Below are positions 2,684-58,300 of a DNA stretch of 64,000 nt, piece after piece; within the stretch, counting starts at the first letter, position 1; each line of letters begins with the position of its first letter. A program made the translations under genes and the position numbers. Under the pieces are notes generated by a model. It was given only the letters and a program-made list of their open reading frames with translations. It ran no database searches and was not told where the DNA came from. Origin of the DNA: Polaromonas sp. (lineage in GTDB: Bacteria; Pseudomonadota; Gammaproteobacteria; Burkholderiales; Burkholderiaceae_C); contig JAAFJF010000011.1 in the NCBI GenBank assembly GCA_013298815.1, positions 1-64,000 on the forward strand, given 5' to 3'.

Positions 2684-2734
2684 GGCTGTAGCCGGCGTAT
2701 TTGCTGCCTAAGGCGCTATTAATTTCATAGTATT
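2684..2734 (+). repeat. Dispersed palindromic repeat, copy 1 (orientation A)
   Basis: Member of the repeat family described in the findings: GGCTGTAGCC, then GGCGTATTTGCTGCCTAAG, then a GCTAT...ATAGT hairpin. It lies between the convergent acnB and dehydratase genes. Confidence 0.85.
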
Positions 2735-12701: not shown

Positions 12702-12750
12702 TTACTATCAATTTAATAGCTGATTAGGCAATAAATACGCCGGCTAGAGG
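12702..12750 (-). repeat. Dispersed palindromic repeat, copy 2 (orientation B)
   Basis: ACTATCAATTTAATAG hairpin, then GATTAGGCAATAAATACG, then CCGGCTAG. It fills the gap between the idnD-like gene and the cupin gene. Confidence 0.88.
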
Positions 12751-15105: not shown

Positions 15106-15150
15106 TGGCTGTAGTCGGCGTTTTTATTGCCTAAACATCTATATTATTTG
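15106..15150 (+). repeat. Dispersed palindromic repeat, copy 3 (orientation A)
   Basis: GGCTGTAGTCGGCG, then TTTTTATTGCCTAA. The hairpin arm is degenerate in this copy (ATCTATATTATTTG). It lies between the convergent ettA and the CusF-like gene. Confidence 0.75.
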
Positions 15151-15167
15151 GAGCATCTGTAGCGATA

Positions 15168-16116: not shown

Positions 16117-16166
16117 ATGCTAGCCAGCGTATTTATTGCCTAAGCAGCTATAAAAATAATAGTAAA
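16117..16166 (+). repeat. Dispersed palindromic repeat, copy 4 (orientation A)
   Basis: GCTAGCCAGCG, TATTTATTGCCTAAG, then GCTATAAAAATAATAGTAAAT. It lies between the cupredoxin and multicopper-oxidase genes, inside the copper operon, so it is transcribed with them. Confidence 0.88.
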
Positions 16167-18716: not shown

Positions 18717-19082
18717 CTACAGAATCGGTGGTTTTTGGCTGTGCGCGATGCTTGCGCTGGCATATCTGCTAGCTGGAGCCAATGGTTGTGCGTAGTGCAC
18801 TTGATCGAAACTGGTAATTTGCACAGTGCTGACCAAGCCGGTGGCATGGCAAGCTTGGCAATGGGTGCAGGCAGGTTTTGCTGTCTTACTATCCGTTGTT
18901 TTATTTTTGTGCATATCGCAATCGGACATGCTTTTTTCAGTGGGTAAATCGATATTAGTCGGCGTATTCATTGCTTGAGTAGCTATCAAATTAATAGCAG
19001 CCATTTCAGTCGCCATCGCCTCGCCCATCCAACCACGCAGTGGCAGCAGGGCTATCATGAATATGAATATAAAGCGACGCAT
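18717..19082 (-). CDS. Small exported Cys-containing protein of the metal block, carrying a repeat-derived segment
   Basis: Hypothetical protein of 121 aa. It starts with a hydrophobic signal-like stretch (MRRFIFIFMIALLPLRGW). A CTHCQACH cluster near residues 80-90 could bind a metal ion or heme-like ligand. Residues about 27-43 (AAINLIATQAMNTPTNI) are encoded by an in-frame copy of the dispersed repeat. The ATG at 19082 is preferred to a TTG at 19100. The gene lies 14 bp after the CDF transporter gene, in the same operon. Similar small proteins often accompany metal-efflux genes, but I do not recognise a named family. Confidence 0.68.
   Translation of the reverse strand: MRRFIFIFMIALLPLRGWMGEAMATEMAAINLIATQAMNTPTNIDLPTEKSMSDCDMHKNKTTDSKTAKPACTHCQACHATGLVSTVQITSFDQVHYAQPLAPASRYASASIAHSQKPPIL
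18954..19003 (+). repeat. Dispersed palindromic repeat, copy 5, inside a coding region
   Basis: TTAGTCGGCG, TATTCATTGCTTGAG, then TAGCTATCAAATTAATAG. It aligns to the intergenic copies over its full length and is read in frame by the minus-strand gene 18717-19082. Confidence 0.85.
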
Positions 19083-20461: not shown

Positions 20462-21433
20462 TTAATCTAGCTTGGCACCAGATGCCAAAACAGCCTTAGC
20501 CCAGAGCGGTGTTTGCAAAGCTAAAAACTGTCCAAATTCATCGCTGCCTAAAAATGCTGGGTCTGTACCTTGTGTCACCATTCGGCTGCGTACATCGGGG
20601 TTGTTCATGATTTGTTTGAAAGCATCACTCAGCTTGGCAACCACATCTTTGGGTGTGCCAGCAGGCGCTAAAAAGCCGTAAAAACCGACAACATCAAACC
20701 CTTTGATGCCAGATTCAATCACGGTTGGAATATCGGGTAGAGCAGGGTTACGCTCTTTGCTGGTGACAGCCAATGCACGCACTTTGCCTTGCTTATGATA
20801 GTTGGCCGCTTGGGGAATAGATTCCGCCATAAATTGCACCTGGCCACCCATCAAGTCCGTAAAGGCTGGTGCGCTACCACGATAGGGAATGTGAACCATG
20901 AACAAGCCAGTCGCGGTTTTGAACATTTCGGGCACGATGTGCGAGATACCACCATTGCCAGCTGAGCCATAGTTGATCTTGCCTGGGTTTTTACGTGTAT
21001 AGGCAATGAATTCAGGCAGTGTTTTAGCAGGAACAGCGTTGTTGACTAGTAATGCCAAGGGTTGCTGAGCTGTGCGAGCAATCGGCACAAAATCACGCAA
21101 GGTGTTGTACGGCAATTTGCTATAAAGCGCACCGTTGATGACGCTAACGCCAGTATTCGCCAACATCAGTGTGTAACCGTCTGCGGGCGATTTAGCCACG
21201 CTTTCTGCGCCTACGCTGCCGCCTGCACCGGGTTTGTAGTCCACCAAAACGGGCTGGCCTAAGATCGTCTGAAGTTTATCAACTAGCAGTCGTGCATGCT
21301 GGTCTAGTGGCCCGCCCGCTGGAAAGCCGATCACGATTTTGATAGGTTTATCAGGATACGCCGTCGCACTATTTGCCTGAAATGCTATGAATATAGTAGC
21401 TAAAAAAGAGATTATTTTTTTTGAAAATAGCAT
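20462..21433 (-). CDS. Tripartite tricarboxylate (TctC/Bug) substrate-binding protein
   Basis: Periplasmic receptor of 323 aa from the large Bug family of betaproteobacteria. The mature protein begins YPDKPIKIVIGFPAGGPLD, the classic TctC opening, and VDYKPGAGG follows. The signal peptide (residues 1-25) is largely encoded by a sequence resembling the dispersed repeat. The ATG at 21433 is used; a longer TTG-started frame would overlap the upstream gene. No TctA/TctB membrane genes are nearby, which is usual for orphan Bug proteins. The ligand is probably a carboxylate, not assignable. Confidence 0.9.
   Translation of the reverse strand: MLFSKKIISFLATIFIAFQANSATAYPDKPIKIVIGFPAGGPLDQHARLLVDKLQTILGQPVLVDYKPGAGGSVGAESVAKSPADGYTLMLANTGVSVINGALYSKLPYNTLRDFVPIARTAQQPLALLVNNAVPAKTLPEFIAYTRKNPGKINYGSAGNGGISHIVPEMFKTATGLFMVHIPYRGSAPAFTDLMGGQVQFMAESIPQAANYHKQGKVRALAVTSKERNPALPDIPTVIESGIKGFDVVGFYGFLAPAGTPKDVVAKLSDAFKQIMNNPDVRSRMVTQGTDPAFLGSDEFGQFLALQTPLWAKAVLASGAKLD
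21356..21402 (+). repeat. Possible repeat copy 6, inside the tctC signal-peptide coding region
   Basis: ACGCCGTCGCACTATTTGCC, then TGAAATGCTATGAATATAGTAG: the order of core, GCTAT and ATAGTAG matches the family, but with more mismatches than the clear copies. Confidence 0.5.
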
Positions 21434-26367: not shown

Positions 26368-26415
26368 TTAGCCGCCGATTTTGTTGCCTAAGATGCTATG
26401 GAAAATATAGCAAAT
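26368..26415 (+). repeat. Dispersed palindromic repeat, copy 7, in the dadA leader
   Basis: Read on the minus strand: a GCTATATTTTCCATAGC hairpin, then ATCTTAGGCAACAAAATCGG and CGGCTAAAT. It lies between the second glycine aptamer and the dadA start, in the region where the expression platform would be. Confidence 0.83.
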
Positions 26416-26454
26416 CAAAAAAGGCACATCAATCGAGGCTGGTTTGCCGCTCCC

Positions 26455-26725
26455 CCTGTCCTTGGTACCTGAGAGATTCACAGCACGCCACATCGGCATG
26501 TTGTTTGCTCCTTCGGTGCAAGGTATCGGAATTACATTTGCTGTAATGCGACACCCTAGCTCTCCAGACGGCGTATAAAAGGTTGCAGTACATCACCAAA
26601 AGGTGGCTAAAAGATCAAATTGATCGATTTGAAGCCAACTTGTATATGGATACCTGAGCGTTCATGGGAGTTTGCGCCTTCGGTGGAATAGACGTGCTAT
26701 TCACTCTCCTGCAACACGGATTGTA
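26455..26725 (-). promoter_or_regulatory. Tandem glycine riboswitch upstream of dadA
   Basis: Read on the minus strand, two glycine-aptamer signatures occur in order. Aptamer 1 (about 26712-26645) has GGAGAGTGAATAGCA, CCACCGAAGGCGCAAAC and CGCTCAGGTATCC. Aptamer 2 (about 26570-26458) has CTGGAGAGCTAGGGTG, CACCGAAGGAGCAAAC and AATCTCTCAGGTACCAAGGA. These blocks (GGAGAG, CCGAAGG.GCAA, CTCAGG) are the conserved core of the class. The linker of about 70 nt is long compared with usual tandem forms. This accounts for most of the gene-free stretch 26349-26832; the rest holds the repeat and the promoters of the two divergent genes. Confidence 0.92.
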
Positions 26726-28020: not shown

Positions 28021-28070
28021 GTAGCCAGCGTATTTATTGCCTAAGCAGCTATTAAATTTATAGTAAATTA
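28021..28070 (+). repeat. Dispersed palindromic repeat, copy 8 (orientation A), near-consensus
   Basis: GTAGCCAGCG, TATTTATTGCCTAAG, then GCTATTAAATTTATAGTAAA. One of the cleanest copies, between the convergent hydrolase and MDR oxidoreductase genes. Its hairpin could act as a bidirectional transcription barrier. Confidence 0.9.
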
Positions 28071-32862: not shown

Positions 32863-32911
32863 AGATATTGATAGCAATATTTACTTTTAACGATATTTGA
32901 GAGAAATCATC

Positions 32912-33844
32912 ATGACATCATTAGTAATCGCAGAACACGACAACGCATCCATCAAACCCGCCACCCTCAACACCGTCACCGCAGCTTTGCAGTGTGGTGG
33001 TGACGTGCATGTGCTGGTCGCTGGTTCAAACGCTGGTGCAGCCGCTGCTGCCGCAGCACAAATTGCTGGCGTCACCAAGGTTTTGCATGCAGACGACGCA
33101 GGTTTGGCCCACGGTTTGGCAGAAAATGTAGCTGCTCAAGTTTTGGCTATTGCCAGCAACTACAGCCACATCTTATTCCCAGCAACAGCGAGCGGCAAAA
33201 ACGTCGCTCCTCGCGTTGCCGCAAAATTGGATGTGGGGCAAATCTCTGACATCACCAAAGTTGACAGCCCAGACACCTTTGAACGCCCGATCTACGCAGG
33301 CAACGCGATTGCCACTGTGCAAAGTTTGGATGCTACAAAGGTCATGACTGTGCGTACCACTGGATTCGATGCAGCCGGCGTAAATGCTGCCTCAGTAGCT
33401 ATTGAAACAGTAGCAAATATTGCTGCCAACGCCAAGTCAACATTCATGGGCAGCGAAATCGCTAAGAACGACCGCCCAGAGCTGACAGCCGCCAAAATCA
33501 TCGTCAGCGGTGGACGTGCTTTGGGAAGTAGCGAGAAGTTTACGGAAGTGATGACGCCTTTGGCAGACAAGCTGGGTGCAGCCATGGGTGCATCACGCGC
33601 CGCGGTGGACGCGGGCTACGCGCCAAACGATTGGCAAGTCGGTCAAACCGGCAAAATCGTCGCGCCACAGCTTTACATTGCAGCGGGTATCAGCGGTGCG
33701 ATTCAGCATTTGGCGGGTATGAAAGACAGCAAAGTCATCGTTGCTATCAACAAAGACGAAGAAGCGCCGATTTTCTCGGTAGCGGACTACGGCTTGGTGG
33801 CTGACTTATTTACGGCCGTGCCTGAGTTAGTCGCTGCGCTGTAA
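32912..33844 (+). CDS. etfA: Electron transfer flavoprotein, alpha subunit, with a repeat-derived linker
   Basis: Protein of 310 aa binding the FAD of ETF. The C-terminal FAD domain is highly conserved: SGGRALGSSEKF, GASRAAVDAGYAPNDWQVGQ, SGAIQHLAGMKDSK and NKDEEAPIF. Residues about 154-169 (AAGVNAASVAIETVAN) fall in the variable linker between the two domains and are encoded by a sequence closely matching the dispersed palindromic repeat, in frame. The domain cores are intact, so the protein should be functional. Confidence 0.95.
   Translation: MTSLVIAEHDNASIKPATLNTVTAALQCGGDVHVLVAGSNAGAAAAAAAQIAGVTKVLHADDAGLAHGLAENVAAQVLAIASNYSHILFPATASGKNVAPRVAAKLDVGQISDITKVDSPDTFERPIYAGNAIATVQSLDATKVMTVRTTGFDAAGVNAASVAIETVANIAANAKSTFMGSEIAKNDRPELTAAKIIVSGGRALGSSEKFTEVMTPLADKLGAAMGASRAAVDAGYAPNDWQVGQTGKIVAPQLYIAAGISGAIQHLAGMKDSKVIVAINKDEEAPIFSVADYGLVADLFTAVPELVAAL
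33373..33418 (+). repeat. Dispersed palindromic repeat, copy 9, inside etfA
   Basis: AGCCGGCGTAAATGCTGCC, then TCAGTAGCTATTGAAACAGT, then AGCAAAT. It aligns especially well with copy 1 (AGCCGGCGTA..TGCTGCCT.AG..GCTATT) and is read in frame without a stop. Confidence 0.75.
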
Positions 33845-35730: not shown

Positions 35731-35778
35731 TTGCTATATTAATGATAGCAATATAGGTATAAAATACGCTGGCTATAG
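35731..35778 (-). repeat. Dispersed palindromic repeat, copy 10 (orientation B)
   Basis: TTGCTATATTAATGATAGCA hairpin, then ATATAGGTATAAAATACG and CTGGCTATAGG. It lies between the acyl-CoA dehydrogenase and nitronate monooxygenase genes. Confidence 0.8.
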
Positions 35779-35825
35779 GTAAATGTACCCCTTTTTTTAG
35801 TGTGAATCTACTTTTGGAGACTAGA

Positions 35826-36776
35826 ATGTCAAGATTGCCTGGAGCCCTGAACAACTTACCACTGCCTATCATCGGCTCACCGCTGTTCATTATCAGCAAC
35901 CCCAAACTGGTCATCGCCCAGTGTATTGCTGGCGTGGTCGGTTCTATGCCGGCACTCAACGCGCGTCCCGCCGAGCAATTGGAAGAGTGGCTGATTGAAA
36001 TCACCGAAACCTTAGCCGCTTACAACAAGGCCAATCCAGACAAGCCAGCGGCACCTTTTGCTATCAACCAAATCGTGCACAAGTCCAACGACCGCCTTGA
36101 GCACGACATGCAAATGTGCGTCAAATACAAAGTACCTATCATCATCACAAGCCTTGGTGCGCGTGAAGATATCAATGCTGCGGCCCACAGCTACGGCGGT
36201 GTGGTGCTGCACGACATCATTAACAACAAACATGCCCGCAAAGCGATTGAAAAAGGCGCAGATGGCTTGATCGCCGTTGCTGCAGGCGCTGGCGGTCATG
36301 CTGGTGTGAAGAGCCCGTTCGCCCTGATTCAAGAAATCCGACAATGGTTTGATGGCCCGGTCGCGTTGAGTGGTTCAATTTCTACAGGTTCTGCGGTTTT
36401 GGCTGCTCAGGCCATGGGTGCAGACTTTGCCTACATCGGCTCCGCCTTTATCGCCACGGAAGAAGCTCGCGCTGCCGATGCCTACAAGCAATCGATTGTG
36501 GACAGCAATTCCGACGATATCGTCTACAGCAACCTGTTCACAGGCGTGCATGGCAATTACCTCGCGCCATCGATTCGCAACGCAGGCATGGATCCAGATA
36601 ACTTGGAAGTCAGCGACCCAAGCAAAATGAACTTTGGTGGTGACAAGTCCAAAGCCTGGAAAGACATTTGGGGATGTGGTCAAGGCATCGGCGCGATCAC
36701 CAAAGTGCAAAGTACTGCTGAATATGTCGCCCAGTTGAAGCGCGAGTACGCCGAAGCAAAAGCTAAAATACTATAA
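35826..36776 (+). CDS. NAD(P)H-dependent flavin oxidoreductase / nitronate monooxygenase family
   Basis: FMN-binding TIM barrel of 316 aa. It opens with LPLPIIGSPLFIISNPKLVI and has GADGLIAVAAGAGGHAGVKS and LSGSISTGSAVLAAQAMGAD, typical FMN-binding segments of the 2-nitropropane dioxygenase family. Oxidation of nitronates is known for some members; others are enoyl reductase-like. It closes the etfBA/acyl-CoA dehydrogenase run. The last codons and the stop (KIL, TAA at 36774) lie in the left arm of a dispersed repeat. The ATG at 35826 follows TTGGAG. Confidence 0.88.
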   Translation: MSRLPGALNNLPLPIIGSPLFIISNPKLVIAQCIAGVVGSMPALNARPAEQLEEWLIEITETLAAYNKANPDKPAAPFAINQIVHKSNDRLEHDMQMCVKYKVPIIITSLGAREDINAAAHSYGGVVLHDIINNKHARKAIEKGADGLIAVAAGAGGHAGVKSPFALIQEIRQWFDGPVALSGSISTGSAVLAAQAMGADFAYIGSAFIATEEARAADAYKQSIVDSNSDDIVYSNLFTGVHGNYLAPSIRNAGMDPDNLEVSDPSKMNFGGDKSKAWKDIWGCGQGIGAITKVQSTAEYVAQLKREYAEAKAKIL

Positions 36777-36815
36777 ATTTAATAGCTACTTAGGCAATAA
36801 ATACGAAGGCTGTTA
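36767..36815 (-). repeat. Dispersed palindromic repeat, copy 11 (orientation B), overlapping a stop codon
   Basis: ATACTATAAATTTAATAG, then CTACTTAGGCAATAAATACG, then AAGGCTGTTAGC. The TAA stop of the nitronate monooxygenase gene lies in its first arm. Confidence 0.88.
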
Positions 36816-39990: not shown

Positions 39991-40037
39991 TTTACTATAA
40001 ATTTAATAGCAGTTAATGCAGTAAATACCCTGGGCAT
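39991..40037 (-). repeat. Dispersed palindromic repeat, copy 12 (orientation B)
   Basis: TTTACTATAAATTTAATAG, then CAGTTAATGCAGTAAATACC and CTGGGCATAT. It lies between the LexA-type box and the polymerase start, so it would be in the mRNA leader. Confidence 0.82.
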
Positions 40038-52553: not shown

Positions 52554-52653
52554 CTTGATCGCTTTTGTGCCACAAACTGGTCTAAATGCGCATTTTTGAG
52601 CTAGGTTGGCTAAAATGTAGATTAGCCATTTTTTGACATATTTAAAGGTTTCC

Positions 52654-54141
52654 ATGAGCCAAGTCACCAACACCGTCCGCTTCGTGCTCGACGGCAAAAT
52701 TGTAGAAGCCCAAGGCGCTAGACGCACCACCACCGTTTTAGACTATTTACGCGAGCAATTGCACCGCACAGGCACCAAAGAGGGTTGTGCTGAGGGGGAT
52801 TGTGGCGCTTGTGTCGTCTTGGTGGGTGAATTAAACGCTGCAGGAACAGGTGTGAACTATGTGCCCTCCAACAGCTGCATGCAGCTGCTGCCCTCTCTGG
52901 ACGGCAAATCCATCAAAACCGTAGAAAGTCTAAAACGCGCAGATGGCACTTTGCACCCGATTCAAGAATCCATGGCAACGTGTTTTGGCTCGCAATGCGG
53001 CTTTTGCACACCAGGCATTGTGATGAGTTTGACCGGTTTGGTGCAAACCAATACTTGCCCAAGCCGTACAGACATCAACGACTCCCTCAGCGGTAACCTC
53101 TGCCGCTGCACGGGCTACAAGCCCATCATCGACGCGACCTTGCAAGCCTGCACAGCCGCTCCCGAGCGTCTGAAAATTGAAGACAGCGCTGACATCGCTT
53201 TACTCAAAGACATCCGCCGCGCTGATGTGCCCATCTACAACTTGGACGGTGACATCGTTGTGCAACCCGTGGTGCGCACCCGCAAAGGTAACGAATTTGT
53301 CGCCCCCGCCACGGTGGCGGAAGTGGCTGACTATTTAGTTAGACACCCAAATTCAACACTGTTAGCCGGCAGCACTGAAATCGGACTACAGGTCAACAAG
53401 CAGTTCACCCGCCCGGAAAACATCGTCTATTTGGGCAACGTTGCCGAGCTGAAAACCATTACCTCCAAAGCTGGCATGTGGCACATTGGCGCAGCCGTTT
53501 CTTTGACAGAAGTGCAAAACTTGATCGGTGACGCTTACCCGGACTTCGCGGAAGTCTTGCGCCGCTTCGGTTCGCCACCGATACGTTCCACCGCCACGCT
53601 GGCTGGCAACATCGCCAACGGCTCGCCGATTGGTGACTCCATGCCGTGTTTACTGGCTCTGGGCGCAACGCTGACCTTGCGCCTTGGCGACAAAACCCGT
53701 CAAGTCGCTTTGGAAAACTTTTACACCGGCATGAAGAAAAACGTGCTGCAGGCCGGTGAATTCATCGAAGCCGTGCTGTTGCCGCAGCCCAAAGCGGGCA
53801 GCACTTTCCGCGCCCACAAAATCAGTAAGCGTTTTGACCAAGACATTTCAGCCACTGTTTGCGCATTGAGCTATGAGCTTGTTGGCGGTAAGTTCGCTAA
53901 CGTCAAATTAGCCTTCAACGGACTTGCGCCGTACCCATGCCGCGCTCCTAAATTAGAAGCAGTTTTGGCAGGAAATACGCCGGCTAGCGTCGAAAATGAG
54001 GTTCTGGATGCGGCTATTGCTGCCAGCTTCCCCGCCCGCGATGGTTTGCGCGCCACTTGGGCCTACCGCTCACTGGTTGCCCGCAATCTGGTCATGCAGT
54101 TTGTCGAAGAATCCACCGATCTGGTGAAGGAGGCTGTCTAA
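52654..54141 (+). CDS. xdhA: Xanthine dehydrogenase small subunit (2Fe-2S and FAD)
   Basis: Protein of 495 aa. The first [2Fe-2S] cluster has Cys45, 50, 53 and 75 (GCAEGDCGACVV, SNSCMQLLP). The second has Cys115, 118, 150 and 152 (CGFCTPGIVMS, NLCRCTGYKP). The FAD domain follows (LLAGSTEIGLQVNKQFTRP, FGSPPIRSTATLAGNIAN). It passes electrons from the Mo site to NAD. The ATG at 52654 has AAAGG upstream. Its stop overlaps the xdhB start by one base. Residues about 432-445 coincide with a possible repeat copy. Confidence 0.96.
   Translation: MSQVTNTVRFVLDGKIVEAQGARRTTTVLDYLREQLHRTGTKEGCAEGDCGACVVLVGELNAAGTGVNYVPSNSCMQLLPSLDGKSIKTVESLKRADGTLHPIQESMATCFGSQCGFCTPGIVMSLTGLVQTNTCPSRTDINDSLSGNLCRCTGYKPIIDATLQACTAAPERLKIEDSADIALLKDIRRADVPIYNLDGDIVVQPVVRTRKGNEFVAPATVAEVADYLVRHPNSTLLAGSTEIGLQVNKQFTRPENIVYLGNVAELKTITSKAGMWHIGAAVSLTEVQNLIGDAYPDFAEVLRRFGSPPIRSTATLAGNIANGSPIGDSMPCLLALGATLTLRLGDKTRQVALENFYTGMKKNVLQAGEFIEAVLLPQPKAGSTFRAHKISKRFDQDISATVCALSYELVGGKFANVKLAFNGLAPYPCRAPKLEAVLAGNTPASVENEVLDAAIAASFPARDGLRATWAYRSLVARNLVMQFVEESTDLVKEAV
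53948..53988 (-). repeat. Possible repeat copy 13, inside xdhA
   Basis: CTAAATTAGAAGCAGTTTTG, then GCAGGAAATACGCCGGCTAG. By hand it matches about 30 of 38 positions of the orientation-B consensus, including AAATACGCCGGCTAG exactly as in copy 2. The encoded LEAVLAGNTPAS is close to normal family sequence, so chance or conversion is possible. Confidence 0.45.
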
Positions 54142-56549
54142 TGAATGCACCTACAACCCTCAAAGAATTGATGCCCAACTTGGCTGATTCTGCAGCCCAA
54201 GGTACAGACGTCATCCACGAGTCCGCCCGTTTGCACGTTACCGGTGAAGCGGTTTACACCGACGACATCCCCGAGCTGCGTGGCACGCTGTACGCCGCGC
54301 TGATTTTGTCCCCCGTCGCCCATGGCGAGTTGATTGGCGAAGGCATTGACCGCGCCGCTATTTTGGCCGAGCACGGTGTGGTGGCCGTCTATACAGCCAG
54401 CGATATCCCCGGCGAAAACAACTGCGGTCCTATCATCCATGATGACCCGTTTTTAGCCACCGGCAAGGTTGAGTTTTTGGGCCAAGCCGTTGCCGTGGTC
54501 GTAGCGCGGGACATGCTCTACGCCCGTGAAGCGGCCAAAAAAGCAGTGGTCAATGTGAAAGAACTCCCTGCGATTTTGACGATTGACGAGGCCATGGCTG
54601 CCAAAAGCTTCGTCATGCCCCCCAAAGGCATCACACGCGGTACGCCGGCTGAGGCTATCAAAAACGCCCCGCACAACATCAAAGGCCAAACCACCTGCGG
54701 CCAGCAGGAACAGTTTTACCTGGAAGGGCAGATCACCTATGCCGTGCCGCGTGAAGATGGTCAGTTGACACTTTACGTATCAACCCAGCACCCAGACGGC
54801 AACCAGCGCGAGGCTGCGGCCGCGTTGAACCTGACCACCAACGACGTGGAAGTGATCTGCCGGCGCATGGGCGGCGGCTTTGGCGGCAAAGAGGGCAATG
54901 CCAGCATCTTCTCGCAAAGTGCAGCATTGGCGGCCTTCAAGCTGCAAAAGCCGGTCAAACTGCGCGTCAACCGGGATGACGACATGATGATCACCGGCAA
55001 ACGGCACGATTTCCGTATCGACTACGAAGCCGGTTTTGACGACGAAGGACGCATTTTGGGCATCGACGTCACGCTGGCATCCCGCTGCGGTTATAGCACC
55101 GATTATTCCGGCCCCGTCAACGACCGCGCCGTGCTGCACATCGACAACTGCTACTACCTGCCTAACCTGTCCATCATCAGCCACCGTTGCAAAACCAATA
55201 TGCAAAGCGCGACAGCGTTTCGCGGCTTTGGCGGCCCGCAGGGCATGTTTGGCATTGAGACAGTCATCGAGCAGATTGCCCGAAAAATAGGCAAAGACCC
55301 ACTTGAAGTCCGCAAAGTCAATTTGTACCAAGAGCCAGCCGTTTCTGGCAATCCAGCCACACTGACGACCCAATACGGCCAAGACATTGAAGACTGGATT
55401 GGCGACAAGGTGATGGCGCAGGTGGAGGCTGAATCTGACTACAGCCAGCGCAGAATAAGTGTTGATAGCTACAATAAAACGAGCAAATACAAGAAAAAAG
55501 GCATCGCCTTGGTGCCGCTCAAATTCGGCATCAGCTTCACCGCCACCATGTTGAACCAGGGCGGCGCGCTGCTCAATATCTATATGGATGGCTCGGTCAG
55601 CGTCAACCACGGCGGCATTGAAATGGGGCAGGGCCTGAACACCAAAATCGCGCAAATCGCGGCAGATGGTTTGGGCATTCCCGTCAACTTCATCCGCGTG
55701 ACTGGCACCGACACCCAAAAAGTGCCGAACGCCTCGGCCACAGCCGCCTCCAGCGGTGCGGACATCAATGGCGCTGCGGTCAACAACGCCTGCGACCAGA
55801 TGCGGGTGCGCTTGGCTGCGGTCGCCGCGCGTATGCTGAACTGTACGCCGGAAACTATTAAATTTGTAGCTGGTCAGGCAGTAAACACGCTGGCTACAGC
55901 TCAAAATAGCACTAAAAACAGTGTTTCATGGCAAGAAGTCGTCAAACAAGCCTGGCTGGACCGCGTCGGCCTGTCGGTGACCGGTTTTTACATGACACCA
56001 GACATCAAATACGACTTCATGACCCTGCAGGGCAAGGCGTTTTACTACTTCTGCTACGGCGCAGCGGTGACGGAAGTCGAAATCGACACCCGCACGGGAG
56101 AGTGGTGGCTGCAAAAGGTCGACATCGTGCATGACGCTGGCAAATCCATCAACCCTGCGATTGATTTAGGGCAGATTGAGGGCGCGTACGTGCAGGGCAT
56201 GGGTTGGCTGACGATGGAAGAGTGCATCTGGGACATGAAAACCAAGGCCAACGGTATGCGCAGCGGTAAGCTGCTGACCCACGGACCAAGCACCTACAAA
56301 ATCCCGGTGGCCAGCGACGTGCCTGAGCACTTCAAGGTTAGCCTGTTTGATGGCCAAAACATCAAACCCACGCCCTTCAAGAGCAAAGCTGTAGGCGAGC
56401 CGCCGTTGATGTTGGCTTTGAGCGCGTATTTTGCGATTCGTGATGCTGTGAGCGCCTCGGCAGGCCACAAAGTGCCAGTTTTCATGGACGCACCCGCCAC
56501 GCCAGAGCGAATTTTGATGGCTTGTGAAGCGTTAAAAAAAGCTAAATAA
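54141..56549 (+). CDS. xdhB: Xanthine dehydrogenase molybdenum-binding subunit, with a repeat-derived segment
   Basis: Protein of 802 aa holding the molybdopterin cofactor and hydroxylating hypoxanthine and xanthine. MGGGFGGKEGN, TAFRGFGGPQGMFGIE and the C-terminal Glu in KAVGEPPLMLAL are the canonical active-site elements. Residues about 571-588 (TIKFVAGQAVNTLATAQN) are encoded by an in-frame copy of the dispersed repeat and are followed by the normal VSWQEVVKQAWLDRVGLS. The start overlaps the xdhA stop (TAATG). The rest aligns with intact XdhB proteins, so the segment appears tolerated. Confidence 0.96.
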   Translation: MNAPTTLKELMPNLADSAAQGTDVIHESARLHVTGEAVYTDDIPELRGTLYAALILSPVAHGELIGEGIDRAAILAEHGVVAVYTASDIPGENNCGPIIHDDPFLATGKVEFLGQAVAVVVARDMLYAREAAKKAVVNVKELPAILTIDEAMAAKSFVMPPKGITRGTPAEAIKNAPHNIKGQTTCGQQEQFYLEGQITYAVPREDGQLTLYVSTQHPDGNQREAAAALNLTTNDVEVICRRMGGGFGGKEGNASIFSQSAALAAFKLQKPVKLRVNRDDDMMITGKRHDFRIDYEAGFDDEGRILGIDVTLASRCGYSTDYSGPVNDRAVLHIDNCYYLPNLSIISHRCKTNMQSATAFRGFGGPQGMFGIETVIEQIARKIGKDPLEVRKVNLYQEPAVSGNPATLTTQYGQDIEDWIGDKVMAQVEAESDYSQRRISVDSYNKTSKYKKKGIALVPLKFGISFTATMLNQGGALLNIYMDGSVSVNHGGIEMGQGLNTKIAQIAADGLGIPVNFIRVTGTDTQKVPNASATAASSGADINGAAVNNACDQMRVRLAAVAARMLNCTPETIKFVAGQAVNTLATAQNSTKNSVSWQEVVKQAWLDRVGLSVTGFYMTPDIKYDFMTLQGKAFYYFCYGAAVTEVEIDTRTGEWWLQKVDIVHDAGKSINPAIDLGQIEGAYVQGMGWLTMEECIWDMKTKANGMRSGKLLTHGPSTYKIPVASDVPEHFKVSLFDGQNIKPTPFKSKAVGEPPLMLALSAYFAIRDAVSASAGHKVPVFMDAPATPERILMACEALKKAK
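55853..55905 (-). repeat. Dispersed palindromic repeat, copy 14, inside xdhB
   Basis: ACTATTAAATTTGTAGCTGG, then TCAGGCAGTAAACACG, then CTGGCTACAGCTCAAAAT. It is read in frame. The TAG that would interrupt this frame in the intergenic form is CAG here. Confidence 0.87.
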
Positions 56550-56569: not shown

Positions 56570-57433
56570 GTGGATTTCACGGCTGAATTTCAGCAACTTT
56601 TAGCCCATGAAGACGCGGTAGTCGTCAGCATCGCTTCCACCCAAGGCTCCGTCCCACGCGAGGCGGGGACGTGGATAGCGGTGTTTGCCACAAAACAAGT
56701 CGGCACGATAGGCGGCGGGCATGTCGAATTTGAAGCCATCACCGAAGCTAGAGCGCTTTTAAAAGCTAAAGAATCAGTCAAACCGACGACAAAACGCTAC
56801 GTTTTAGGCCCCAGCCTAGGACAATGCTGTGGCGGTGTGATGACTTTGCACTATGAAAAATATAGCTGCTCAGGCAGTAAAAACGCTGGCTACAGCTCTA
56901 AAATTCCCTTAAATTCGGCATTTGATGCAATTTTGGCGATCAAACCACAATTTCAGCGCCAAAACGTCGCCCTGTTCGGCGGCGGCCACGTCGGTAAAGC
57001 CATCGTCCACATCCTAAGCACCCTGCCCATGCAGGTGATGTGGATAGATAGCCGCGATGAAATCTTCCCAGAGGAGCTGGCGAGTAACGTCATTTGCGAA
57101 CATTCCGATCCCGTTCAGGCAGCAGTGAATGACTTGGCGGCAAACAGCCACGTCCTCATCATGAGCTTCAGCCACGCCGAAGACCTGGACATCGTCGCCG
57201 CCTGCCTGCTGCGGCAGCGCGAGAGGGGGGATTTACCGTTTATCGGCCTCATTGGCAGCAAAACCAAGTGGGCGACATTTAGGCATCGGCTGGAAGACCG
57301 TGGATTTTCAGAGGCTGAACTGGCGCACGTCACCTGCCCGATTGGGGTGGATGGCGTTGTAGGCAAAGAGCCGCAGGCAATTGCGGTCGGGGTGGCGGCG
57401 CAGTTGTTACAGTTACGTCGAACTACGCCTTAA
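56570..57433 (+). CDS. xdhC: XdhC-type accessory protein for molybdenum cofactor insertion
   Basis: Protein of 287 aa that binds sulfurated molybdenum cofactor and helps insert it in XdhB. The N-terminal domain has the family motif TQGSVPREAGTWIAV and GTIGGGHVEFEA, then LGQCCGGVM with paired Cys. The Rossmann-like C-terminal domain opens VALFGGGHVGKAIVHIL. Residues about 95-110 between the domains (YEKYSCSGSKNAGYSS) come from an in-frame repeat copy. The GTG start at 56570 is used; it has a weak ribosome site and no closer ATG. Confidence 0.93.
   Translation: MDFTAEFQQLLAHEDAVVVSIASTQGSVPREAGTWIAVFATKQVGTIGGGHVEFEAITEARALLKAKESVKPTTKRYVLGPSLGQCCGGVMTLHYEKYSCSGSKNAGYSSKIPLNSAFDAILAIKPQFQRQNVALFGGGHVGKAIVHILSTLPMQVMWIDSRDEIFPEELASNVICEHSDPVQAAVNDLAANSHVLIMSFSHAEDLDIVAACLLRQRERGDLPFIGLIGSKTKWATFRHRLEDRGFSEAELAHVTCPIGVDGVVGKEPQAIAVGVAAQLLQLRRTTP
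56852..56900 (-). repeat. Dispersed palindromic repeat, copy 15, inside xdhC
   Basis: CTATGAAAAATATAG hairpin, then CTGCTCAGGCAGTAAAAACG, then CTGGCTACAGCTCTAAAA. It is in frame, in a different frame from the xdhB copy, and shares CTGGCTACAGCTC with it. Confidence 0.9.
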
Positions 57434-57469: not shown

Positions 57470-57517
57470 CCGATAGCCGTTGCTTTTACTGCCTGATAAG
57501 CTACTATTTTTGTAGCA
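57470..57517 (+). repeat. Dispersed palindromic repeat, copy 16, forming the end of proQ
   Basis: ATAGCCGTTGCTTTTACTGC, CTGATAAGCTACTATTTTTG, TAGCA. The hairpin arm encodes the last codons and the TAG stop of the minus-strand ProQ-like gene (57504-57506), and the stem followed by T-rich sequence may also terminate transcription. Confidence 0.8.
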
Positions 57518-58232
57518 TTTTTTCAACATCAGCCAGATCCAAACCGTACATTTCTGCAAATTCAGCTGTCTTTTTGCCGCTGCCTTCAAACGCACGTTTC
57601 AGGGCGGTCTGTTTGGCTTGTTTAGCGTCGTGCTCGGCTAGGGCTTCCTCTAAAAGCGCCGTGGCTTCGGCATCGGCGTTTTGCACACGCAGTTGGTAGT
57701 CTTGGCGGCTCAGGCCTGATGCGACGAAGGCGGCGATGAGCTGTTTACGAAAAATCGGGCGTAGGTTCAGCTTGGTGCGGGCTTTGGCATTGCTGATGAC
57801 GCGGCGGCGGAAGAGTTCCAAAAGGGCTAGGTACACGTGCTCTGGGGAGACGTCCTCAACCGCGTTGCCCTGCAAATCATGGCGTTTGTTGCCGTCGGCC
57901 ACGCATTGCAGGTAACGGGTGGAGCGTGCGTGGAAGCCTAGCGCAGCTTTGAGGCTGTCTTTTTTGAAGTCCTCTGGGTGCGCGGCCATCAAATCTTGAT
58001 AGGTACCCAGTTTGAGTGGCAAAAACGAGCTGCCGAACAGGTGCGGATAGAGCTCAAACAGTTTTTGTAGGACCGGTTGAACGTCGATTTTCGGCTTTTC
58101 TGATTTAACCGGTTTTTGCTTGTCAGCTGGATGAATCAATTCAGTCGACTCTGCCTTCACGACTGTTTCGTTAGAAATAGTCTCTGCGGATTCATTAGTT
58201 TCAACGATATCAGTGATTTCATTAGTAGTCAT
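57504..58232 (-). CDS. proQ: ProQ/FinO-domain RNA-binding protein
   Basis: RNA chaperone of 242 aa. An acidic/Thr-rich N-terminal tail of about 50 aa precedes the FinO fold: VLQKLFELYPHLFGSSFLPL, LKLGTYQDLMAAH, LGFHARSTRYLQCVADGNKR and VYLALLELFRRR. The C-terminal part is helical. FinO-domain proteins bind structured RNA and sRNA 3' ends. The gene is flanked by two repeat copies in opposite orientations, one giving its stop codon and one 21 bp upstream of its start. It stands between xdhC (convergent) and hemL (same strand). Confidence 0.93.
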   Translation of the reverse strand: MTTNEITDIVETNESAETISNETVVKAESTELIHPADKQKPVKSEKPKIDVQPVLQKLFELYPHLFGSSFLPLKLGTYQDLMAAHPEDFKKDSLKAALGFHARSTRYLQCVADGNKRHDLQGNAVEDVSPEHVYLALLELFRRRVISNAKARTKLNLRPIFRKQLIAAFVASGLSRQDYQLRVQNADAEATALLEEALAEHDAKQAKQTALKRAFEGSGKKTAEFAEMYGLDLADVEKMLQK

Positions 58233-58252: not shown

Positions 58253-58300
58253 TGCTATAAAAAGAATAGCTATTCAGGCAGTAAATACGCTGGCTAAAGG
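58253..58300 (-). repeat. Dispersed palindromic repeat, copy 17 (orientation B), in the proQ leader
   Basis: GCTATAAAAAGAATAGCTAT, then TCAGGCAGTAAATACG and CTGGCTAAAGG. It lies in the region between hemL and proQ, just before the proQ start. Confidence 0.88.

Follow-up and report, generated by a model that had tools for sequence, protein, structure and literature searches.

We consider it very likely, with a probability of roughly 0.86, that a segment of 16 codons within the xdhC gene of Polaromonas sp. is an old in-frame insertion of a dispersed repeat, which is present in several hundred copies per genome and is tolerated here in the hinge of the protein. The window, i.e. the whole stretch of 64,000 nucleotides that was analysed, is contig C3 of the source assembly (G000; 3.33 Mb in 90 contigs), and the genus comparison set (g1) consists of this genome and its congeners G001, G002 and G003. 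The xdhC gene starts with GTG and occupies 56570..57433 (+). Its 287-codon reading frame is open and both Pfam domains, XdhC_CoxI and XdhC_C, were found, in agreement with the earlier note, in which the frame and the motifs of XdhC had been judged intact. The repeat copy lies in frame at 56846..56899 (+) according to the profile bounds, with the left arm CTATGAAAAATATAG at 56851-56865 and the right arm GGCTACAGC at 56888-56896. As had been proposed from the letters alone, the arms and the element between them are translated as YEKYSCSGSKNAGYSS, through the codons 56852..56899 (+), and the segment proved to be a copy of a dispersed repeat.

Its membership in the repeat family is established by the scores. 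With a profile built from 50 intergenic copies only, the xdhC copy reached 40.6 bits, whereas the maximum of this profile on codon-shuffled versions of the called genes (ten versions, 3.8 Mb) was 11.2 bits and 500 synonymous DNA versions of the xdhC peptide gave no more than 29.7 bits. The similarity is therefore one at the level of DNA.

It is clear that the copy lengthens the protein. The linker between the QCCGG and FGGGH motifs has 46 residues in G000 and G001, 42 in G002 and 34 in G003. Among 95 non-congeneric loci with both motifs (from two collections, in which the same species may occur twice) it has 30–37 residues in every case and exactly 30 in 79; eight of 110 loci had been dropped from this count as one of the two motifs was missing. 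The gain over the commonest linker is 16 residues or 48 nt, which equals the length of the element, although in G003 it is only 4 residues. The tolerated in-frame insertion proposed in the earlier note is supported by the shorter linker of all 95 loci (30–37 against 46). The positions of YEKY are not new, since relatives commonly have F/Y-E-R/K-V there (FERV, FEKV or YEKV), and the left arm overlaps native codons in part. Conservation of the same residues in repeat-less XdhC proteins, which had been named as a point against an insertion, therefore applies to the first three or four residues and not to the remainder.

In an AlphaFold model of XdhC (mean pLDDT 86), YEKY lies on the strand 90–98 and residues 103–127 have a pLDDT below 50; in the model, therefore, a native strand is followed by a disordered hinge that comes from the element. 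The common ancestor of the four genomes would have acquired a repeat copy in xdhC, immediately behind the final strand of the N-terminal domain; about 48 nt would thereby have been added in frame, and the disordered hinge that separates the cysteine domain from the Rossmann domain would have become longer. Of 52 intergenic copies, 17 already have the reading frame used in xdhC open, and the insert would survive because the hinge tolerates length. No clean empty site with intact flanks was found. The insert is common to all four genus genomes, with the shared private bases CTATGAAAAATA, which are unlike the consensus of the repeat family, and outside the element the four xdhC genes differ from each other by 0.36–0.84 synonymous changes per site. 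The insertion is therefore older than the visible splits, and the description of it as recent in the earlier note is unsupported.

The repeat is about 46–52 nt long, AT-rich, non-autonomous and dispersed. In the survey with an iterated profile, which covered 456,718 bases (the window, nine further stretches of G000 and parts of the three congeners), 97 copies were found, and from the density in 244 kb of G000 we extrapolated to about 765 copies per genome. The controls of the iterated profile gave at most 18.3 bits in 628 kb of other comamonads and 11.0 bits in our own sequence reversed. When the 97 copies were scored with the clean profile, 86 had at least 25 bits, eight were between 20 and 25 and three were below 20. 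A profile made from 14 window copies found 16 stretches of the window at E < 1e-5, the 14 included, and in a scan of the whole G000 genome all of the 150 candidates that were scored, from a total of 2252, matched. In Rfam the repeat had no match at the gathering score.

The earlier note had described a hairpin or palindromic element, which is true only in a weak sense. The CTAT/ATAG pair is conserved, 94.6% of the cells being paired, but without covariation; the RNA fold of the xdhC copy has z = -1.1, five folded copies range from -1.9 to 0.05, and the consensus fold of 14 copies has -1.2 kcal/mol. With no covariation, near-random z values and such a consensus energy, the hairpin model was rejected as weak.

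Copies called intergenic were located by the profile at 2687..2732 (-), 12703..12748 (+), 15110..15155 (-), 16120..16163 (-), 35732..35776 (+) and 39994..40033 (+). Others called intergenic lie at 18956..18999 (-), where G002 has a decayed copy of similar length, at 26369..26412 (-), at 28021..28065 (-), which ranked second among the 150 scored candidates of G000, and at 58253..58296 (+), found at the same place in all four genomes. The copy at 36770..36811 (+) overlaps the 3' end of the gene 35802-36776 and that at 57474..57517 (-) the 3' end of the gene 57504-58232; a weak copy (15.7 bits with the clean profile) lies near the N-terminus of a TctC-family gene at 21360..21400 (-). The only window copies undetected in both aligned congeners, G002 and G003, were 36770 and a weak one at 53944, and neither is a clean empty site: the flanks of the former were not cleanly aligned and the latter showed no length difference. 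No pair of strains shows current movement. We also noticed that tandem glycine riboswitch aptamers (Rfam RF00504) at 26446-26577 and 26636-26721 (-) adjoin the copy at 26369-26412.

A related repeat occurs elsewhere in the family. Of 60 genomes, 11 contain the 14-mer ATAGCTGCTTGCGC, with 2 to 151 occurrences each; they represent 11 other genera of the same family, and the four g1 genomes have none. Read backward, as a control, the 14-mer gave two matches in total, in two genomes of other families. Most of the 30 copies that we read have a CTAT/CTAC/CTCN-like start and a stretch rich in A/T before the 14-mer. The left half CTAT-N-ATAGCTGCTT is common to the window's repeat and the Comamonadaceae ATAGCTGCTTGCGC repeat, and at the trpF site described below the two are in register. 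The repeat of the window has the appearance of a branch derived from the family-wide one. In the R1 search (E up to 1e-5) there were at least 91 matches in each of G000–G003 (91 of 91 scored); with strict filters and up to 91 candidates scored per genome, G005 had at least 4 and G012 at least 16, and the other 54 genomes had none.

The closest known kind is that of the protein-coding REP and RPE repeats. According to the published descriptions, the Rickettsia palindromic elements (RPE) of PMC2229807 are 105–146 bp with long stem-loops, while RPE-4 and RPE-6 of R. conorii are short CGTC-tagged repeats (PMC3733652). The likeness consists in short dispersed repeats of which some copies lie in frame in genes of conserved proteins and are tolerated there (PMC2229807, PMC3733652). 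In our material such proteins are XdhC, XdhB, YidC, KdsB, TrpF, AnmK and others, and a net insertion is seen in XdhC (+16), KdsB (+23 to +31) and XdhB (+8) but not in trpF, etfA and anmK of G000. A long palindrome or stable stem-loop is lacking; the repeat has 46–52 nt, is AT-rich and untagged, and is barely palindromic. The similarity to Rickettsia palindromic elements put forward in the earlier note thus holds in kind and not in sequence, the two having been likened by their descriptions.

GTAG/CGTC-tagged REP elements are described in PMC3733652 as mostly intergenic, with intragenic copies and REP-decorated proteins; related recB genes carry different REPs in nearly the same position, and DNA polymerase I is among the targets. 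The window's repeat resembles them in its intragenic copies, its mostly intergenic location and a hit in DNA polymerase I (here polA of G001), but it has no conserved terminal GTAG or CGTC, the column after GGCTA being C, G, A or T in 14 copies, and no stable stem. For the related organism P. naphthalenivorans, PMC5217627 gives the motif ATAGCT(N)22CAAAAG in 125 copies, 101 intergenic and 18 in genes. It shares the ATAGCT core with our repeat and is known from that text as a motif pair only; its spacing to CAAAAG misfits the copies here, so identity is unproven. BRE (Beta-proteobacterial repeat elements), as described in PMC3110155, are short repeats of Comamonadaceae and Bordetella, some wholly within coding sequences; those of Bordetella are about 90 bp, 69% G+C and sometimes tandem, and they are set apart from the 46–52 nt AT-rich repeat by this description only. 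Literature searches with the letters of the repeat, HPELVEG, REP and Comamonadaceae, coding palindromes, RAYT and short-patch recombination returned, among the papers listed, no description of the window's repeat. The present case adds Rickettsia- and REP-like protein-coding repeats in a comamonad genus, at an estimated 765 copies per genome, some of them in proteins such as YidC, KdsB and TrpF.

Copies are depleted in genes but not excluded from them: 32 of the 97 lie in called genes against 84% coding sequence (p = 4e-29, with orthologous copies that are not independent and at least one, in xdhA, misfiled). The genes had been called with a simple script based on codon usage; it overlooked xdhA at least, whose copy at 53944 was thereby filed as intergenic, and copies near N-termini, such as that in a GntR-type gene (L182), may fall outside the true coding sequence. 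Hosts named by NCBIfam or Pfam are YidC, LipB, Lnt, AnmK, a NodT-type outer-membrane protein, an MFS transporter, a DNA methylase and a second XdhC-like maturation factor, as well as KdsB, TrpF and DNA polymerase I (polA) of G001; some intragenic scores are low, e.g. 24.8 bits for LipB. Comparisons with the PDB were pairwise phmmer alignments and served solely for choosing genes.

With the orthologous XdhC and XdhB copies merged, 23 intragenic hits were reduced to 19 independent sites of at least 25 bits, and the mapping of phase to frame was derived here. Nine sites use a same-strand frame giving IAxQAxNTxA-like peptides, three use the xdhC frame and six a reverse frame giving VFxAxxAIxxIA-like peptides, i.e. 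the intragenic copies are read in frames that give Ala-rich or similar peptides. The reverse frame that is open in more intergenic copies than any other frame (30 of 52) is used at only one of the 19 sites (p = 7e-4, post hoc). This bias suggests selection on the intragenic copies at the protein level. The predicted DNA methylase gene, L183:951-2765 (+), holds two in-frame copies in two different frames.

Additional length was also seen in other proteins. The neighbouring xdhB gene (molybdopterin-binding subunit) was called at 54057..56549 (+), although its true start may be downstream, and carries a second in-frame copy at 55854..55901 (+), common to G003, with a net gain of 8 residues; the loop has 68 residues in G000 and G003 against mostly 60 elsewhere, G001 being absent from the alignment. 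In kdsB the added element is present in all three g1 genomes where the gene was found, with 59–67 residues in the alignment window against 36–40 elsewhere (+23 to +31). The yidC gene carries a copy in all four g1 genomes, in a linker of such variable length that a gain is not measurable. In the second XdhC-like protein, copies of 45.2, 44.0 and 27.1 bits were found in the three g1 genomes having the protein; its linker (alignment window) has 81–101 residues against 72 in G005, but 90 in G015. The second XdhC-family gene L190:15280-16383 (-) of the window's genome has the repeat between its two domains in the opposite orientation.

Two candidates in the window were rejected as insertions. A weaker repeat-like stretch at 53944..53986 (+) in xdhA (52633-54141) shows no indel in 17 of the 18 alignment rows covering the site (two genomes occur twice), though its score exceeds the nulls, and it is native sequence or a conversion tract. 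Similarly, a stretch of 26 bits at 33371..33420 (-) in etfA (32897-33844 +) shows no indel against nearly all orthologues: 26 of 30 rows (one of them G000) have equal length, two lack one residue and the remaining two do not reach the site.

As for the way in which the copies spread, we infer a mobilising step, and the likeliest routes would be single-strand transposition by a RAYT-like Y1 transposase or recombination and gene conversion from other copies. The first, RAYT-driven transposition as proposed for REP elements, seems to us to have slightly less than an even chance. Each of the four genus genomes has one Y1_Tnp (RAYT-like) gene. Copies lie in both gaps beside this gene in G000 and G002, in one of them in G003 and in neither in G001. 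These are five of eight gaps, whereas the background, counted over intergenic gaps no shorter than 55 bp, is 55 of 172 with a copy (32%); the link to RAYT is therefore suggestive at most, and the flanking copies, taken as proof of mobilisation, were downgraded against a background occupancy of 0.32. No target duplication is visible around the repeat, and this absence is expected for the single-strand chemistry of the RAYT type. The repeat has no conserved GTAG tag and no stable hairpin, which speaks against this route, as does the lack of a flanking copy in G001. The Y1_Tnp gene is kept in relatives whose locus shows no clear match to either repeat profile. Its product has about 235 aa and is found once per genome in most of the family members searched (L111:651-1355 and L145-L168), with or without nearby repeats.

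The other route, in which gene conversion or short-patch illegitimate recombination, and not transposition, brought the copy into xdhC with native TATGAAA-like codons as microhomology, appears somewhat less probable. It agrees with the match of the left arm to native codons in xdhC and xdhB, and it is favoured for copies in three genes where native codons carry the repeat with little or no change in length, namely trpF (four g1 genomes), etfA (G000 and G003) and anmK (G000). When the peptides of trpF, etfA and anmK were recoded, none of 1000 recodings each reached the observed score, the best for anmK being 33.4 against 34.0. In trpF, FVN is likewise separated from QFHGDE or QLHGDE by 18 residues in the outgroups checked by eye. 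The anmK gene of G000 is as long at this place as most of its orthologues; a difference of one or two residues occurs in a few, and G015 has 8 more. We also noticed that the anmK genes of G015 (L252) and G000 (L247) each have their own version of the repeat at the same site, the left half being shared; in seven other relatives scored there was no match at that site.

The versions of the repeat in trpF (L173:4513-5220 and L221-L235) differ between lineages. In the four g1 genomes it is the g1 version, with 34.9–51.6 bits for the g1 profile, whereas the same codons in G005, G007, G013 and G015 carry the family version TGCTTGCGC, with 26.0–27.9 bits for the family-version profile. G006 was ambiguous (10.8 bits), the trpF genes of G004, G008, G009, G010, G014, G037, G040 and G042 had no match above 6 bits, and in the locus of G012 matches occurred only elsewhere. 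That these codons hold, in register, the genus version in g1 but that of the family in four further genera hints at gene conversion. The simplest reading is that an ancestral element was replaced by the current version of each lineage, i.e. conversion from dispersed copies; the alternative is repeated replacement at one site.

It is more doubtful whether protein-coding copies have also been overwritten in place, as TrpF, EtfA and AnmK with their little or no length change would suggest. Such overwriting, together with the trpF versions, would imply continuing gene conversion between the dispersed repeats and genes and, if true, would mean that selfish DNA edits proteins by substitution rather than insertion. 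Against conversion stand xdhC and kdsB, which show addition and not replacement. A general homogenisation of copies is also unsupported in the window, where the two members of 18 of 23 orthologous copy pairs have a higher mutual identity than the average with copies of the partner genome, and those of nine of 23 a higher one than with any of its other copies (identities 0.59–0.93). The lineage-specific versions and the coding sites shared across genera offer a natural test between transposition and gene conversion as the way in which REP-like repeats spread, an old question reportedly treated by Higgins in 1988.

For the insertion in xdhC itself, it is improbable that the segment is a functional module, either as a longer hinge that helps XdhC or as DNA with a regulatory or terminator signal. 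The insert has been kept in all four genomes, as a module would be, but the linker is shorter in G003 (34) and G002 (42), the fold is near random and the peptide drifts: over the 17 codons of the element, pN is 0.12–0.27 and pS 0.14–0.45 among the four genomes. This pN exceeds that of the C-terminal domain in five of six pairs and is close to that of the N-terminal domain, with counts too small for a claim on dN/dS. There was no indication of a positive function of the insert. Least probable is that native XdhC coding sequence resembles the repeat by chance or codon bias, since in spite of the native YEK and the repeat-like stretches without indel in xdhA and etfA, this is contradicted by a linker longer than in all 95 non-congeneric loci, with 16 residues over the commonest one, and by a score far above the codon-shuffled and synonymous nulls.

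The loops of XdhB and XdhC accept repeats of several kinds. In G002 the same xdhB loop (L175, near base 16468 of contig C9) holds a different repeat, which is read as VHPELVEG. In the xdhC gene of G003 (L180:14301-15185), a loop of the N-terminal domain holds CGTC-ATTCCCGC-GAAG-GCGGGAAT, read in frame as SFPRRRES, and this repeat fits the published layout of CGTC family 1, with an 8-bp stem and a 4-base loop.
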